Shown here in pieces: positions 4,241 to 27,698 of a stretch of 64,000 bases of DNA. Source of the DNA: Selenomonadales bacterium. Lineage in GTDB: Bacteria > Bacillota > Negativicutes > Sporomusales > UBA7701. Each line of letters starts with the position of its first letter. Positions within the stretch are counted from its first letter, which is position 1. Below the pieces are notes generated by a model, which did not search any database, was not told the origin of the DNA, and saw only the letters and a program-made list of their open reading frames with translations. Position numbers and translations under genes: made by a program. The stretch spans positions 1-64,000 of the forward strand of contig JARKNV010000079.1 in the NCBI GenBank assembly GCA_029976065.1, given 5' to 3'.

Positions 4241-4294
4241 CCGCGGGCGGCGGCGTCATTGCCGCGGCGGAACGCAATCTTTTATTATAGTAAA

Positions 4295-4335: not shown

Positions 4336-4353
4336 GTGTATGCATAATTGCAT
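4336..4353 (+). promoter_or_regulatory. Putative enhancer site (UAS) 1 for a sigma54 activator
   Basis: GTGTATGCATAATTGCAT. The same pattern GTGTATGCA-N4-TGC occurs at 4405-4422 and, as a divergent pair, just upstream of the sigma54 activator gene at 11180. It lies about 150 bp upstream of the start predicted from the sigma54 promoter at 4475, a usual enhancer distance. Confidence 0.6.
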
Positions 4354-4404
4354 AAGGGCTGGTGATAACCGGATAGAGCCTTATCTCGGCTGTAGCGTCT
4401 ACTC

Positions 4405-4422
4405 GTGTATGCAGTATTGCCC
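4405..4422 (+). promoter_or_regulatory. Putative enhancer site (UAS) 2 for a sigma54 activator
   Basis: GTGTATGCAGTATTGCCC, the second copy of the pattern, 69 bp downstream of the first (about six and a half helical turns) and about 80 bp before the sigma54 promoter. Confidence 0.55.
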
Positions 4423-4474
4423 ATGCGGGGAGCAGATGAAAGGCTCTGATCACGCAATTTTCGTACATTTCGGG

Positions 4475-4492
4475 CTGGCACAATTCTTGCAT
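4475..4492 (+). promoter_or_regulatory. Sigma54 (-24/-12) promoter
   Basis: CTGGCACAATTCTTGCAT: a near-perfect match to TGGCAC-N5-TTGCA with GG (4477-4478) and GC (4489-4490) exactly 10 nt apart. The predicted start is near 4502, 34 nt before the ATG of a 39-codon gene. The sequence just downstream (ATTATTATA) resembles that after the other sigma54 promoter at 10978-10995. Confidence 0.85.
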
Positions 4493-4535
4493 TATTATAC
4501 AAGCGCAAAGAACCGTTTTGAACGGAGGCCTCGCA

Positions 4536-4655
4536 ATGAAAAACGCTGGCCGGTTTAATGACGAAATCGAATTCTTGTGGGACGGATACGAATATGTAGT
4601 TCTCCAGGAACAACCCCCTGTTGTCAGGGCGGAGCCAGTTGTCGCAAACTGCTAA
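4536..4655 (+). CDS. Small 39-aa protein of unknown function, sigma54-driven
   Basis: Open frame of 39 codons starting MKNAGRFNDEIEFLWDGYEY and ending in ANC, with a good ribosome binding site (CGGAGG, 9 nt before ATG). It is acidic in its first half and has one C-terminal Cys; no membrane segment. It matches no family I recognise. The support is its context: the only open frame directly after a strong sigma54 promoter with two putative enhancer sites. Its stop overlaps by 4 nt the stop of the convergent XRE gene, so read-through would be antisense to that gene. A short inverted repeat (CCGTTTTGAACGG) touches the ribosome binding site and could modulate translation. Confidence 0.6.
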   Translation: MKNAGRFNDEIEFLWDGYEYVVLQEQPPVVRAEPVVANC

Positions 4656-5041
4656 CTATTCGGGCTCCTGCGTTTACGCTGGGTTTTGATGATGGCGTCG
4701 ACGACGGCTTCAACCGTTTCCGCGGATACGCCGTGGGTCAAAGCCTTCTTGGTAAGCTGTAGGAAAGGCATGCTCTCCGACTTGGCCAACAAGGCGATGA
4801 ATTCCGGATCGAGGTTGGGCAGACAATCAGTCGGCAGTTGCGCGTCGCTGATGCGGAAATAATCGGCGTTAATGCCGAGGGCTCCCGCCAGATTGGCGAT
4901 TACGCGGGAAGAAACCTCCGTCTTGCGGCCATTCTCGATATTCGTTATATAAGAACGGGACACACCGGACCGCTGCGACAGTTCCTCAACGGTCATTTCG
5001 CGCAGTTTCCGTAAGGAACGAAGCTTAGCACCGATTTCCAC
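4652..5041 (-). CDS. XRE-family transcriptional regulator (SinR-like HTH, 129 aa)
   Basis: N-terminal helix-turn-helix of the Cro/CI type spans about residues 5-60 (LRSLRKLREMTVEELSQRSG, then SRSYITNIENG as the recognition helix region); the C-terminal half is a charged helical tail of unknown role. I choose the GTG at 5041 because GGGAGGTGG lies 8 nt upstream; the upstream in-frame ATG at 5071 has no ribosome binding site and falls in the promoter (-10-like TATAAT on the minus strand at 5070-5075 and 5080-5085). It is divergent from the second XRE gene at 5290 and shares its control region. Confidence 0.85.
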   Translation of the reverse strand: MEIGAKLRSLRKLREMTVEELSQRSGVSRSYITNIENGRKTEVSSRVIANLAGALGINADYFRISDAQLPTDCLPNLDPEFIALLAKSESMPFLQLTKKALTHGVSAETVEAVVDAIIKTQRKRRSPNS

Positions 5042-5172
5042 CTTCTTAACCACCTCCCGGCACAGTAACATTATACATTATTATATCCAACGTTTCCACT
5101 AGAGGTTTGCGCACGCCTTGGCAAGGCAGGGCCGACCCCTTGATGCCGGAGGAGGAAATTATCTGAAATTAC

Positions 5173-5202
5173 TTGACAAATGTTTCTTTTGGAAACTATA
5201 AT
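5173..5202 (+). promoter_or_regulatory. SigmaA promoter of the 77-aa XRE gene
   Basis: TTGACA (5173-5178), 18-nt spacer, TATAAT (5197-5202): a consensus housekeeping promoter. The spacer is almost filled by the operator-like palindrome at 5182-5196. Confidence 0.85.
5182..5196. promoter_or_regulatory. Operator-like palindrome GTTTC-N5-GAAAC, site 1
   Basis: GTTTC TTTTG GAAAC lies between the -35 and -10 boxes of the XRE promoter, where a bound repressor would block RNA polymerase. The same 15-bp layout recurs at 5247-5261 and 6710-6724. Confidence 0.65.
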
Positions 5203-5219
5203 TAAGGTAGATAGAGCCG

Positions 5220-5277
5220 CAGAAGGCATTTTTTTAGACCCGAAACGTTTCCGGCGGAAACGGAATGCTGCCTTCTG
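5220..5277 (+). promoter_or_regulatory. Leader hairpin containing operator-like palindrome site 2
   Basis: In the 5' leader of the 77-aa XRE gene, arms CAGAAGGCA (5220-5228) and TGCCTTCTG (5269-5277) pair and enclose a second perfect inverted repeat CGTTTCC-GGC-GGAAACG (5246-5262). The inner repeat contains GTTTC-N5-GAAAC (5247-5261), identical in layout to site 1. It may act as a DNA operator, an RNA structure, or both; it ends 13 nt before the start codon. Confidence 0.6.
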
Positions 5278-5289
5278 TTTCTAGGGGGG

Positions 5290-5523
5290 ATGCCGTTGAG
5301 CGGGTCGCGGATAAGAGAACTAATGCGCAGAAGAAGTCTCAACATCACCGAATTTGCCAAACTGGTAGACGTTGAGCGATCCCACATCTCCAACATTCTG
5401 GCCGGCCGCAAAAAGCCGTCGATAGACCTGGCGCTCAGGATGTCAAAAGTTTTGGGGGTCACGGTAAACGAACTGATGCGTAAGGATGGCTTCCGCAATT
5501 TCGGAACAAGGCCAAAACGGTAA
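5290..5523 (+). CDS. Small XRE-family regulator (77 aa, Cro/CI HTH)
   Basis: Almost the whole protein is one helix-turn-helix domain: IRELMRRRSLNITEFAKLV then DVERSHISNILAGRKKPSID and a helical end LALRMSKVLGVTVNELM. Such one-domain proteins usually bind DNA as dimers. It is expressed from a strong sigmaA promoter that contains a palindrome, so autoregulation is likely. The same palindrome overlaps the promoter of the transporter/decarboxylase operon at 6.7 kb, making this a candidate repressor of that operon. The start may be ATG 5290 or TTG 5296; the G-run just upstream fits the TTG slightly better. Confidence 0.85.
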   Translation: MPLSGSRIRELMRRRSLNITEFAKLVDVERSHISNILAGRKKPSIDLALRMSKVLGVTVNELMRKDGFRNFGTRPKR

Positions 5524-5660
5524 GACAGAAGTGAATGTATGCTGAATAAGTCGCTCGACCCGGCTGGAATGCCGGACGACGTGGTGTGGCGATTACTAAC
5601 CGTAATTCCGGCGAAGTGACGGCGACGACAGCTAGAGACGGAGGGAAAGGAGGAGCAACG

Positions 5661-5870
5661 ATGGTGACGATGTCAATCGACCCGGCCGGAACGCTGGGGG
5701 CAAGGGAATTAGCTGTGCTCAAGGCGAAGCTGGGCAATCCCGACGGCGTTTCGTCAGTGCCGGTAAAGGTCGAGGACAACACCCTGTGCATCGGTATAGA
5801 CGACCGGGAATTCGCCGATGACTGGGAATTCATCGGCCGCAAACTGGGCTATCGTGTCCACAGCGTATAA
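5661..5870 (+). CDS. Hypothetical 69-aa protein
   Basis: A frame opened by a clear ribosome binding site (AAAGGAGGA) 8 nt before ATG 5661. It is soluble, with a mixed N-terminal helix (residues 12-28) and a C-terminal half rich in Asp/Glu ending in KLGYRVHSV; it has the look of a small alpha/beta domain related to the TusA/SirA-like fold, but I do not recognise a family. The frame is open further upstream, but codons before 5661 lack a ribosome binding site. Confidence 0.6.
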   Translation: MVTMSIDPAGTLGARELAVLKAKLGNPDGVSSVPVKVEDNTLCIGIDDREFADDWEFIGRKLGYRVHSV

Positions 5871-9312: not shown

Positions 9313-10437
9313 ATGTTCGAGGCATTCAACGTAGCGTTGCAGGCCGTATATAACGACAGCGGTTTTACCGCGTTTACCACCGGCAACGCCATTATGATCG
9401 CGGTGGGCTTGGTGCTCATATACCTGGCGTTCGCCAAGGGCTTCGAGCCCTTGCTGCTTTCGCCGATAGCCTTCGGCTGCATTCTCGCCAACCTGCCGAA
9501 AACCGGTTTCTTCGAAGACCCGGGTGTAATGCAGCTTATCATGAAAGGCATTGAGCTCGAGGTCTTTCCGCCCTTGATCTTCCTCGGAGTCGGGGCAATG
9601 ACCGACTTCGGTCCGATGCTCGCCAACCCGTCGACCCTGCTGCTCGGCGCTGCGGCCCAGATCGGCGTATTCGTATCCTTGGGTGGCGCCATGCTGCTAG
9701 GGTTTAACGTCCAGGAATCCGCCTCCATCGGCATCATCGGCGGGGCGGACGGGCCGACAGCCATCTACCTCACCGTCAAGCTGGCCCCTCATCTGCTGGG
9801 TGCCATCGCGGTAGCCGCCTACTCCTACATGTCGCTCGTGCCGCTTATCCAGCCGCCGATTATGAAGCTCCTCACCACTCAAAAAGAGCGCGAATGCGTC
9901 ATGGAACAGCTGCGGCCCGTTTCGAAATTCGAGCGGATCGCCTTCCCCATCGTCTGTACGCTGGTAATCAGCCTCCTGCTGCCGCCGATCGCAGCCCTGA
10001 TGGGCATGCTTATGCTCGGCAACCTCTTCCGCGAATCCGGCGTGACCGATCGTCTGTCCGACACCGCCCAGAACGCCCTGATCAACACCGTGACGATATT
10101 CCTTGCCTTAGGCACCGGCTTGACGATGTCGGCCGAAAGCTTCCTCAACATCAAGACGATCGAAATCATCGGCCTCGGCCTGGTGGCTTTCGCCGGCGGC
10201 ACCGCGGGCGGCGTCTTGTTAGGCAAGGTTATGTATTATGCCACCGGCGGCAAAGTCAACCCGCTCATCGGTTCGGCCGGTGTGTCCGCCGTGCCGATGG
10301 CGGCCCGTGTCAGTCAGGTGGTCGGCCAGAAAGCGAATCCGGGCAACTTCCTCCTCATGCATGCCATGGGTCCGAACGTAGCTGGCGTTATCGGCACAGC
10401 CGTTGCCGCCGGCACCATGCTGGCGATGCTGAAATAG
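9313..10437 (+). CDS. Na+-translocating decarboxylase beta subunit (OadB/MmdB/GcdB family)
   Basis: 374 aa, about ten membrane segments. The family core is visible: [17 protein letters not shown] around residues 144-160, with the essential Asp that takes part in Na+ binding, and [13 protein letters not shown] near the C-terminus. It releases CO2 from carboxybiotin and pumps Na+ outward. A GGAGGGT ribosome binding site precedes the ATG, and a terminator follows. The alpha (carboxyltransferase) subunit that would fix the substrate is not in this operon or window, so substrate (malonate, oxaloacetate, methylmalonyl-CoA or other) is open. Confidence 0.93.
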
Positions 10438-10470
10438 CTCCTCGCCCTGCTGAAGAGAAACTCTTAACTC

Positions 10471-10505
10471 AGCCCCCGGTGCCGGATAAGCACCGGGGGC
10501 TTTCG
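10471..10505 (+). terminator. Terminator of the transporter/decarboxylase operon
   Basis: AGCCCCCGGTGC / GCACCGGGGGCT with a short loop and TTTCG after it, 34 nt beyond the beta subunit stop. Confidence 0.85.
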
Positions 10506-10522
10506 CATGGCCCCGCATAGAC

Positions 10523-10547
10523 AAAAAAAAGACCGCATTACGCGGTC
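10523..10547 (-). terminator. Minus-strand intrinsic terminator
   Basis: On the minus strand, GACCGC-GTAAT-GCGGTC is followed by eight T residues. No annotated gene precedes it on that strand, so it marks the end of a transcript coming from 10968. Confidence 0.75.
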
Positions 10548-10968
10548 ATGAATAGGGTAGGCTCACCCAGAAACGGAGGATGCCTCCCTATGTGGGGAGC
10601 ATTTGAATCGTTTGCCGGGAAAACCGGCAGCGAAAAATACCGTAAGACAAGGCGGGGAAGAATAGCAGGAAAAATTCCCTGTGGGCAAGAACACATACAA
10701 ATAGTATTGATTCAATCCCAAAGCCCCGATCTTCGTGAAAAGAATCTATCTGTTGGCACAGGGAACGCATTCCGCCAGAAACGTGCTTCCGCACGCGAGA
10801 CTAACTGCGGGGCCGCCAAGGAAGACACCGTCTCCTCGGAAGCCCTGGCAAACCCGGCTAACCGGCTCCGGATGAGCATGTCTACCGGAGGTGAGTGCTA
10901 GCCTTATCGGTTCGCCACTATCCCCGGCCGGGTTTAGCGGCACGGTAGCGGATTAAGTTGGACACCAA
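10524..10968 (-). ncRNA. Putative sigma54-dependent structured RNA, about 440 nt, unassigned
   Basis: Minus-strand region bounded by a sigma54 promoter (10978-10995) and an intrinsic terminator (10523-10547). No open frame in it has a convincing ribosome binding site. Several stems are visible: CTCCGG/CCGGAG with a 13-nt loop (10858-10890 region), CGTGC-GGAA-GCACG near 10790, GCCGG-TTTT-CCCGGC near 10620, GGAGGC-ATCCTCC near 10580, and a long-range pairing AAACCCGGC/GCCGGGTTT that encloses about 80 nt. It does not match RNase P, tmRNA, SRP RNA, 6S or a riboswitch that I recognise. An mRNA for a very small protein is the alternative. Confidence 0.55.
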
Positions 10969-10977
10969 CCTATTATT

Positions 10978-10995
10978 ATGCAAAAATCATGCCAA
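10978..10995 (-). promoter_or_regulatory. Sigma54 (-24/-12) promoter, minus strand
   Basis: Read on the minus strand: TTGGCATGATTTTTGCAT, with GG and GC exactly 10 nt apart. The expected start is near 10968. It points away from the sigma54 activator gene at 11180, and a pair of enhancer-like sites lies 150-195 bp upstream of that start. Confidence 0.8.
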
Positions 10996-11124
10996 AACCG
11001 CGACGCCCGTGCGGCAACGCTTTGGCAAGGACGCTCCGGCGGAATGTCGGCAAAAACGCCTACAGACTTCCCGGCCGGACCAATGATCTTGTCGGAAACG
11101 ATTGTGTCTGCTGCCCACGAAATT

Positions 11125-11142
11125 GTGTATGCAAAACTGCAT
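11125..11142 (+). promoter_or_regulatory. Putative enhancer site 3 (shared sigma54 activator motif)
   Basis: GTGTATGCAAAACTGCAT, the same pattern as 4336-4353 and 4405-4422. Located between the divergent sigma54 promoter and the activator gene. Confidence 0.6.
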
Positions 11143-11149
11143 GACAAAA

Positions 11150-11167
11150 AAGCATCTTTGCATACAA
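11150..11167 (-). promoter_or_regulatory. Putative enhancer site 4, inverted
   Basis: On the minus strand TTGTATGCAAAGATGCTT. With site 3 it forms the larger inverted repeat TGTATGCAAA / TTTGCATACA (11126-11166). It ends 13 nt before the activator start codon, so binding could also block the activator's own translation start or transcription. Confidence 0.6.
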
Positions 11168-11179
11168 CGGAGGCTAATA

Positions 11180-12574
11180 ATGCCATATCTTGAGATTGAG
11201 AAAGAAAACAAACTGCTGTGGAAAATTATCGATTCTTCCTATGACGGGATATTTCTCACCGACGCCGACTGCAATATCCTCTACTGCAACGAGGCTTATC
11301 TCAAGATATCGGGGCTTGACAGGGAGATGCTCAAGGGGAGGAAGCTCGACGATCTCGTCAAGGCCGGGGAAATACCCGACGCCTGCTCCCCCGACGTCAT
11401 CCGGACCCTAAAGCCGATGACCAAGGTGATCGACTATTACCACGGCGTGTCCGCCCTCGTCACGAGCATCCCGGTGCTCGGCGACGACGGCCAGCTGCTC
11501 AGGGTTTTCTCCAACGTCCGCGACATCACCGAGCTCGTCGGCATCAGAGAACAGCTGAAAAGCAGCACCGACCTCAACGAGGAATACCGGCGCCTCCTCT
11601 GGCAGGCGGAACGGACCGGACGCGACGGCAATTTCATTGTCGCCAGCCCGGTAATGGAAAATATCTTCAAGCTGGCGGCCAGGGTCGCCCAGGTATCTTC
11701 GCCCGTGCTTATCCAGGGGGAATCGGGCGTCGGCAAGGACGTGCTGGCCCGCTACATTCACGACAGCGGCGAAGACGCCGCCAAAAGGCCGTTCGTGCAG
11801 ATAAACTGCAGCGCCATCCCCGAGACGCTGCTCGAGTCGGAGCTGTTCGGGTACGAAGCCGGCGCCTTCACCGGCGCCGCCAAAAAAGGCAAGATCGGTC
11901 TTATCGAACTCGCCAACAACGGAACCCTCTTTCTCGACGAAATCGGCGATATGCCGATGCCTCTGCAGGTCAAGCTGCTCGACGTCCTCCAGACCAATCG
12001 GATGTTCCGCCTCGGCGGCACCAAGATGGTCGAGACGAAAACCCGCATCATCGCCGCCACGAACACCAACCTCGAAAAAATGATCGAGGAAGGGCGCTTC
12101 CGCCGCGACCTTTATTACCGCCTCAACGTCATCCCCATCTATATACCGCCGCTACGCGAGCGCCGTGAGGACCTCGTGCCGATGATCCTCAGCTTTCTGA
12201 ACCAGAACAACCGCAAGTACAATATCACCAAAAAAATCTCTCCCAAAGTCGTCGACATCCTTACCCACTACTCCTGGCCGGGCAATGTCCGCGAACTGCG
12301 CAACATCATTGAACACATGGCCGTACTCGCCGAAGGCGAAACCATCGACGAAAAATGCGTGCCGCTCAGTGTCGCGCGAGCCGCGGGCAAATCGTTGTTC
12401 ATCGAGACCCCGGATTACTTTTCCTCCTTCAACCTGCAGGAAATCAACGATGTCGTCGAAAAGGCGGTTATCGAAAAAGCGCTGGCCGCCTTCGGCTCAA
12501 TGCGCAACACGGCCGCGCACCTGGGGATCGACCTTTCGACCCTTGTTCGCAAAAAGCGCAAATACGGTTTATAA
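11180..12574 (+). CDS. Sigma54-dependent transcriptional activator (PAS-AAA+-Fis HTH)
   Basis: 464 aa from ATG 11180 (CGGAGG 8 nt upstream). Residues 12-120 form a PAS sensor (DSSYDGIFLTDADCNILYCN start, DITEL end). The AAA+ domain (about 155-390) has Walker A GESGVGKD, the sigma54-contact loop GAFTGA, Walker B GTLFLDEIGD and the arginine-finger stretch RRDLYYRLNV. The C-terminus is a Fis-type HTH (NTAAHLGIDLSTLVRKKRKY). It would melt sigma54 promoters in response to a small ligand or redox cue sensed by PAS. Shared 18-bp sites tie it to the sigma54 promoters at 4475 and 10978. Confidence 0.93.
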   Translation: MPYLEIEKENKLLWKIIDSSYDGIFLTDADCNILYCNEAYLKISGLDREMLKGRKLDDLVKAGEIPDACSPDVIRTLKPMTKVIDYYHGVSALVTSIPVLGDDGQLLRVFSNVRDITELVGIREQLKSSTDLNEEYRRLLWQAERTGRDGNFIVASPVMENIFKLAARVAQVSSPVLIQGESGVGKDVLARYIHDSGEDAAKRPFVQINCSAIPETLLESELFGYEAGAFTGAAKKGKIGLIELANNGTLFLDEIGDMPMPLQVKLLDVLQTNRMFRLGGTKMVETKTRIIAATNTNLEKMIEEGRFRRDLYYRLNVIPIYIPPLRERREDLVPMILSFLNQNNRKYNITKKISPKVVDILTHYSWPGNVRELRNIIEHMAVLAEGETIDEKCVPLSVARAAGKSLFIETPDYFSSFNLQEINDVVEKAVIEKALAAFGSMRNTAAHLGIDLSTLVRKKRKYGL

Positions 12575-12666: not shown

Positions 12667-12737
12667 CTTTTTTGTTTCCCACGGAGGAGATCCCGCTACG
12701 TTTGGCAAAATAATGATGCGTGTGGGGAGGTGAATAT

Positions 12738-13205
12738 ATGACCACCTATAGATTTGGTGGCGAAACCGCGATGGGCATGGCCGCCCTTGCAAACAGGCGC
12801 GCCGGCCTAGTTTCTCTTGCCAACCGCTTTTACCGCCAGGCTCGCGACTGCCATTCCTTCGACGAGGAAGAAGAGCTTACCAGCCGTTTCCTCAGCAAGT
12901 TCATGGAAGGAATCTTCGGCTGCTTCGCCTGCGAGGAAGAGCTGATGGCCGCAACCTATTATCCCGACCGCGAAGATCACCGGCAGGAACACGACGACTT
13001 TATCGAACAGCTCTATGCCCTGCGGCGGCGGCACAAACTCGGTGAACCGGTTATGGCGATCGAGATTTTCTTCGCAGTCCGGGATTGGTTTCTCGATCAC
13101 TGGGAGTACGCCGACGGCCGGCTGTTGCCCTATCTGGACCGGACGACAACCCTTGTCCTGCGCCGCGCCGAAACCGGTACCGCACCGGAATCCGTGCCGG
13201 CCTAG
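12738..13205 (+). CDS. Hemerythrin-like protein with lost metal ligands
   Basis: 155 aa from ATG 12738, with GGGAGG 7 nt upstream. The four-helix layout of bacteriohemerythrin is clear: EEELM on helix B, HRQEHDDF on helix C and WFLDHWEYAD on helix D supply Glu, two His, and His/Asp. The helix A His (expected in a D-x-x-H motif) is absent from the segment ANRRAGL, and the His before the helix B Glu is replaced by Cys (CFACEE). With two of five His gone, a normal di-iron, O2-binding site is unlikely. It might bind one metal, sense redox through Cys, or be structural. Single gene with its own terminator. Confidence 0.7.
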   Translation: MTTYRFGGETAMGMAALANRRAGLVSLANRFYRQARDCHSFDEEEELTSRFLSKFMEGIFGCFACEEELMAATYYPDREDHRQEHDDFIEQLYALRRRHKLGEPVMAIEIFFAVRDWFLDHWEYADGRLLPYLDRTTTLVLRRAETGTAPESVPA

Positions 13206-27250: not shown

Positions 27251-27467
27251 TATCGTCACCTCCCTTTTTTTGTAGGGTTTCGCAACAGCAGAGGAAATCC
27301 TTGGGGTTCTTTTGCTGCATTTTCCCATTATCTTGTTTTCAGTTTTTCCTATAAGACAATTTTAAGCGGTAATGTGAATATCTTGCCATGTTGTTTTTTT
27401 CGGCAGGATAATTCGGCCCGGCCGGGGAAGCAGTCCCCAGAGTTTGGCAATTGAATAGCGATCCACC

Positions 27468-27641
27468 GATCAGGTGCCTCTTCGACGAAGAGGTGAAAAG
27501 GGAAGTTCGGACGGGATTTGCCTGACAGATCCCGAAACGACGCGGTCGCGCCACTGTAAGCGGGGAACAGCCTTGCGGGAACCCACCGGCAACGGGAAGG
27601 GGCATGGCTGTGATGAGCCGTAGCCAGGAGACCTGCCTGTG
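27468..27641 (+). promoter_or_regulatory. Cobalamin (adenosylcobalamin) riboswitch
   Basis: The conserved elements appear in order: CAGGTGCC with AGGTGAAAAGGGAA (27470-27504), the GCGCCACTGTAAGCGGGG core (about 27548-27565), and the B12 box GCCAGGAGACCTGCC (27623-27637). It lies upstream of cobT with an intrinsic terminator between, so B12 excess should stop cobT transcription. Confidence 0.95.
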
Positions 27642-27698
27642 AGGCTGTCATGTGTCCCCGCGCCAGGGATAGTGCCAGAAGGATAGGATTTTGACAAG

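Follow-up and report, generated by a model that had tools for sequence, protein, structure and literature searches.

A likely sigma54-dependent regulatory RNA, apparently non-coding, divergent from its candidate activator gene in Selenomonadales

In silico analyses of a stretch of 64 kb (64,000 nt, referred to below as the window) point to what looks like a new regulatory RNA, structured, conserved, ca. 446 bases long and apparently non-coding, that would be transcribed from a sigma54 promoter divergent from the gene of its candidate activator. The window corresponds to contig 34 of genome G000 (3.42 Mb, 82 contigs); G000 to G004 belong to the same genus, G005 to a sister genus, and class-wide searches covered 380 genomes. 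The features discussed are listed in Table 1. The RNA locus is flanked by the divergent activator gene and by a convergent OAD_beta gene ending at position 10437; in the congeners, where frames of at least 190 codons were listed, OAD_beta appears next to the RNA in G002 and not in G001, G003 or G004. Elsewhere in the window, a cobalamin riboswitch was detected at 27455-27654 (+; 82.3 bits).

Table 1. Coordinates of predicted features in the window
Feature	Position	Strand	Remark
Upstream site of second promoter, TATGCATAATTGCATA	4339..4354		motif search
Weaker upstream site of second promoter	4408-4423		by eye
Second sigma54 promoter, TGGCACAATTCTTGCA	4476..4491	+	pattern match
Gene of 39-aa peptide	4536..4655	+	GGAGG ribosome site; conserved
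Predicted RNA, 446 nt	10523..10968	-	predicted ends
Intrinsic terminator, GACCGCGTAATGCGGTC plus eight T	10523..10547	-	stem unchanged in 5/5 genus genomes
3' module consensus hairpin, ATAGGG...CCCTAT	10552..10591	-	97.5% of 3'-structure cells pair
C-rich stretch, GCTCCCCAC	10592..10600	-	candidate seed; identical in 5/5
Block TTTGTATGNNTTCTTGCC	10684..10701	-	kept in G000, G001, G002 and G004; first bases vary
Stretch GTTTCTGGCGGAA	10770..10782	-	by eye, appears to align with start-codon region of the small gene of G005
Second hairpin	10811..10844	-	window fold; by eye similar in G001 and G005, unlike G002 and G004
5' domain, three-tier hairpin	10845..10946	-	covariation; model matches in G005, weakly in G316
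Sigma54 promoter, TGGCATGATTTTTGCA	10979..10994	-	pattern TGGCAYRN4TTGCW
Two upstream sites, TATGCA-N4-TGCATA type	11128..11143 and 11149..11164		21 bp apart; candidate activator sites
Candidate sigma54 activator, 464 aa	11180..12574	+	PAS, AAA+ (Sigma54_activat) and Fis-type HTH matches

Promoter, activator and predicted transcript

The sigma54 promoter pattern given in Table 1 occurs twice in the window when compared to a mean of 0.07 in 100 shuffled versions, none of which reached two matches. This bears out the near-consensus minus-strand promoter that had been proposed from the sequence-only reading and places -24/-12 elements at the predicted transcript start, as expected for a sigma54-dependent RNA. 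The intrinsic terminator with eight T residues that the same reading had located at the expected transcript end is also present, terminator-like sites as a class showing no clear enrichment there (9 versus 6.3 expected). The region in between, which had been described as rich in stems, indeed folds at -173.1 kcal/mol (strand 10968-10522; z -3.61) and none of 100 shuffled sequences folded as low. The strongest signal comes from the last 78 nt of the RNA (z -4.86), that of the 5' domain being weaker (z -2.11; 8 of 200 shuffles as low), and positions 10700-10601 display no signal above shuffles (z -0.69).

The assignment of the neighbouring gene to the sigma54 activators is upheld by its domain matches, and a sigma54 gene occurs in the window genome (PF04552, 206.7 bits). 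The activator shares 79-93% identity with its counterparts in the four congeners, and a search of genome contigs with the activator yielded distant relatives only (best segments 33-49% identical). The enhancer-like inverted repeat previously noticed between promoter and activator resolves into two putative activator sites, lying 160-196 bp ahead of the predicted start, and paired sites separated by the same 21 bp also precede the activator in G004. When one mismatch is allowed, the motif is found at 10, 5, 6, 6 and 3 places in G000 to G004, versus 2, 0, 1, 2 and 1 for a control. A sigma54-dependent RNA would require such a set of components, namely sigma54 itself, encoded in the genome, and a candidate activator whose putative sites lie upstream. 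A double site-like match on contig 72 of G000 was considered as a further target and rejected, no sigma54 promoter being found nearby.

Conservation of the RNA and its structured 5' domain

A DNA search of six genomes of the family matched five, all from the genus of the window, and G005 remained unmatched. As a result of the comparison with related genomes that the sequence-only reading had proposed, the RNA was found conserved beside the activator throughout the genus: the activator, the divergent promoter and the 3' end of the RNA are kept in 5/5 genomes while other neighbours vary. The RNAs of G004, G001 and G002 (430, 430 and 429 nt, respectively) can be aligned throughout with that of the window; in G003, the RNA occurs as a 227-nt form comprising only the 3' part, without the 5' domain. 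The sequence GCTCCCCACATAGGG is identical in all five genomes (the divergent promoter of G003, which has a final G, was read by eye). Across the genus, the central part of the RNA is highly variable, and exact copies of TTCTTGCC are found in four of the five genomes, G003 being the exception. No Rfam family was matched, whether at the gathering threshold over the whole window or at a permissive threshold over positions 10400-11300.

The 5' domain extends beyond the genus. A model built from four genus sequences detected it in G005 (32.2 bits, E 8.4e-5), where it begins 24 nt past the predicted start as compared to 23 nt in the window. One compensatory change can be read directly, GGCTA/TAGCC being replaced by GGTCA/TGACC in G005. 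Over five rows, 97.5% of the cells are paired, with two-sided changes at 9 of 24 pairs; over six rows, the values are 96.5% and 13 of 24. These figures were reached by none of 500 shuffles, and a shift of the partners by 1-3 columns left 24-50% paired, yet the counts lean towards structure because the rows were fitted to it, and the shuffles ignore relatedness, so that the figures flatter the structure. Of the covarying stems that had been anticipated, those of the 5' domain are supported and its helices, apparently kept by compensatory change, point to a conserved structured RNA; the 3' hairpin, conserved without any variation, is uninformative by covariation.

When the model including G005 was run unfiltered on six further loci (45 kb), G316 came first (24.6 bits, E 2.5e-4; next match, E 0.082). 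This match, which appears only with filters off and is absent from the class-wide list, was credited because of its place, ca. 30 nt past the predicted start of the G316 transcript; the same model gave no leader match in G021, G317 or G003. Among the 380 genomes, strong matches were obtained in G000, G001, G002, G004 and G005, with weaker ones in G056 (27.3 bits, E 0.002), G003 (24.0 bits) and G049 (22.7 bits).

Coding potential and the 3' module

At an E value of 1e-140, the activator was found in 11 of the 380 class genomes, at 12 loci, ten of which have divergent -24/-12 elements. The promoters fit the pattern in G000, G001, G002, G004, G005 and G021, and were read by eye in G003, G316 and at both G317 loci. 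By eye, neither divergent promoter nor RNA was seen in G006 and G012, the contig of the latter offering 808 bases upstream, and the stretch from promoter to activator showed no upstream site in G316 or at one of the G317 loci. Behind the divergent promoter lie homologous small genes in G005 (69 aa), G021 (66 aa) and at one G317 locus (61 aa); a profile of these proteins matched only the three input places among the 380 genomes. In G005, the 5' domain forms the leader of the mRNA for the 69-aa protein. At the other locus of G317 (L130), which holds a second, 57% identical activator copy (4441-5853), a separate divergent sigma54-like promoter at 4278 (-) is followed, with no long leader, by a small ORF of a different kind. 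In G316, frames occur on the strand of the divergent promoter, none of which was seen by eye to have a ribosome site inside the transcript.

Because the same promoter precedes a small-protein gene in G005, G021 and G317, the RNA reading has to be widened, and these genes also raise the question of whether the window transcript is itself a messenger for a small protein missed by sequence reading. Its frames include one that opens at RNA position 141 with a GTG, behind a fair ribosome site, but this start is not shared. The small-protein profile scored at most 6.3 bits (15 translations compared; E 0.011), in a frame of G004, which may faintly hint at a remnant. We nevertheless regard a messenger as unlikely: no start codon that recurs in three or all four of the long RNAs combines a ribosome site with a frame whose length is conserved, and the profile found nothing in G000 to G004 at E 0.001. 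A conserved small open frame, which had been named as the observation that would overturn a non-coding transcript, was looked for across the genus and none was found, suggesting that the transcript is not translated there. The proposal that this is an RNA rather than a tiny mRNA is hence favoured by its conservation in the genus, by the covarying 5' domain and by the lack of a conserved frame.

An ancestral ORF may nonetheless have existed. The stretch that aligns by eye with the start codon of the G005 gene keeps a TTG in G001 only and has no clear ribosome site, and on this basis the ORF was probably lost. We tentatively consider, as a possible though doubtful history, that a small-protein messenger was turned into a regulatory RNA that retains the old leader, has lost the frame within the genus, while some lineages keep it, and has gained a new, seed-bearing 3' module; the activator would drive it alongside tiny genes, which are its recognisable targets with a site and a sigma54 promoter. 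The loss could also have left a mere relic of a leader-plus-ORF mRNA, with a 5' domain that formerly worked in cis and a present transcript devoid of function in trans, as the leader position of the domain in G005, the strongly varying middle of the RNA and the apparent loss of the ORF might suggest. This is rather improbable, since the 3' module, which is absent from other genera, is conserved in all five genomes, including G003 which lacks the 5' domain: its 15 leading bases are identical and 57 of 79 alignment columns are invariant, which calls for present selection. A model of this module, whose class-wide search rests mainly on sequence, scored 82-103 bits in the five genus genomes; at E 0.05, 36 of the 380 genomes were matched, and matches outside the genus, none above 22.8 bits, were taken as chance.

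The regulatory RNA that we favour would carry its candidate seed in the C-rich stretch of the 3' module. With the module folded alone, this stretch is unpaired in G001, G002, G003 and G004; in the window, another fold that pairs it is the most stable. When the four long RNAs are folded as an alignment, part of it pairs with the 5' domain. Since it is identical in G003, where that domain is missing, an outside partner seems likely. The stretch resembles the seeds by which other Gram-positive RNAs cover ribosome sites.

A second promoter and possible partners of the RNA

In the window, a site of the same type precedes a second sigma54 promoter and the gene of a small peptide, and this arrangement (site, promoter and a gene of 39-40 aa preceded by a GGAGG ribosome site) is found in four of the five genus genomes (G000, G001, G002 and G004), making it a putative second target of the activator. 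The peptide also occurs in G012 (E 1.7e-4), where two such sites and a sigma54 promoter again precede its gene; it had no match in G003, and matches in G065 and G084 (17 bits) were taken as chance. The peptide gene overlaps at its end with a regulator gene that converges on it (4652-5071, -; helix-turn-helix, XRE-like by eye), so that the peptide mRNA may continue into an antisense transcript of this regulator. The locus of G012 is arranged in a similar way. Two other loci deserve mention. In G005 (L124, 3742-3992, +), a site and a sigma54 promoter precede a gene whose 65-aa product contains CTCG and CRHC motifs and looks zinc-ribbon-like by eye; this gene is convergent with the small-protein gene of that genome. 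In G316 (L129, 5883-6240, +), a site-like sequence and the sigma54-like promoter TGGCACGCATTATGCA lie downstream of the activator and are followed by very short frames.

The search for targets of the RNA by duplex energy gave no signal, the predicted duplexes being no better than those of random stretches. Values were -28.4, -15.6, -26.7 and -24.4 for the peptide mRNA (G000, G001, G002 and G004, respectively) and -27.0, -24.1 and -24.3 for the mRNA of a hemerythrin-like gene (G000, G002 and G004), versus medians of -27.0, -25.3 and -22.6 for 400 random stretches in G000, G002 and G004 (no background for G001). The hemerythrin-like gene, located after the activator (12722-13205), scored 22.0 bits in Pfam, below the cut-off of 25.3. 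Its ribosome site GTGGGGAGG, at 12722, is complementary to CTCCCCAC of the RNA and is the nearest target candidate; it is common to G000, G002 and G004, the gene not being found in G001 and G003. The pattern GTGGGGAG-N2-12-ATG occurs 9, 16, 15, 12 and 15 times in G000 to G004 versus 2, 8, 9, 3 and 10 times for the reversed pattern, an excess that ordinary ribosome sites can suffice to explain. Finally, the loop CCTCCGTT pairs exactly over 8 bases with AACGGAGG of the peptide only in the window genome, the pairing extending by eye over 5-6 bases in G001, G002 and G004, and is regarded as a lead only.

The transcript might instead serve as a sponge that titrates an RNA-binding protein, in the manner of CrcZ for Hfq/Crc or of CsrB. 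CrcZ, too, has an activator-controlled sigma54 promoter, and sponges carry many copies of their motif, that of Crc/Hfq being AAYAANAA. In the RNAs of G000, G004, G001, G002 and G003, this motif is found 0, 0, 1, 1 and 0 times and ANGGA 2, 1, 2, 3 and 0 times. Such counts do not place the RNA among the CrcZ-type sponges and make this explanation very improbable.

Taken as a whole, the proposal to which we give a little better than even credence is as follows. The activator encoded at 11180 would sense a signal via its PAS domain, bind the paired TATGCA-N4-TGCATA sites and drive sigma54 polymerase at two promoters, one yielding the RNA (10968-10523) and the other, at 4476, the mRNA of the 39-aa peptide. 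The RNA, untranslated in the genus, would combine two parts: a structured 5' domain, which in the sister genus appears to lead the mRNA of a small protein, and a 3' module specific to the genus (GCUCCCCAC, rich in C, followed by hairpin and terminator) that is expected to pair in trans with Shine-Dalgarno regions. Action in trans is proposed with moderate confidence.

If true, this would offer a compact testable system of one activator, two promoters, one RNA and one peptide, and might show a conversion of mRNA to non-coding RNA of which both forms are still visible in related genera. To our knowledge and as far as our searches go, it would also be the first sigma54-driven regulatory RNA outside Proteobacteria. 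None was found for this group in the literature searched (with few subscription journals), and the terms small RNA, sRNA and non-coding do not occur in PMC6615313 and PMC12316311.

CrcZ of Pseudomonas and Qrr of Vibrio are the sigma54-driven RNAs to which the present one is best compared. On our analysis, it would resemble them in its sigma54 promoter, its dependence on an activator, the lack of a conserved frame and its intrinsic terminator. It differs by the absence of an Rfam match, by few CrcZ-type motifs and by the bacterial group, as well as by an activator gene that is divergent and adjacent and by a 5' domain shared with a small-protein mRNA. In the literature searched, as far as its texts were available, the known sigma54-linked RNAs were proteobacterial, as the earlier reading had held; they include Qrr1 of V. 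fischeri (PMC10162802) and GlnZ, SroC and NrsZ of Enterobacteriaceae and Pseudomonas (PMC9731577). According to the available part of the latter source, GlnZ and SroC derive from mRNAs made from sigma54-dependent promoters, messenger and RNA sharing a transcript as would be the case here, but in those cases the RNA comes from the 3' UTR of a protein gene that is retained (PMC9731577), whereas here the frame seems to be missing in the genus with the 3' module. In the SigL (sigma54) regulons of Clostridia, activator genes adjoin their sigma54 targets, as here; in the available part of that report, however, the targets are protein operons and no RNA was seen among them (PMC7438776). Regulatory RNAs under sigma54 control would thereby reach a lineage for which the available literature reports protein operons. 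As far as seen, RNAs of this kind are known already; what is new is the family, its lineage and the sharing of a domain with small-protein messengers.
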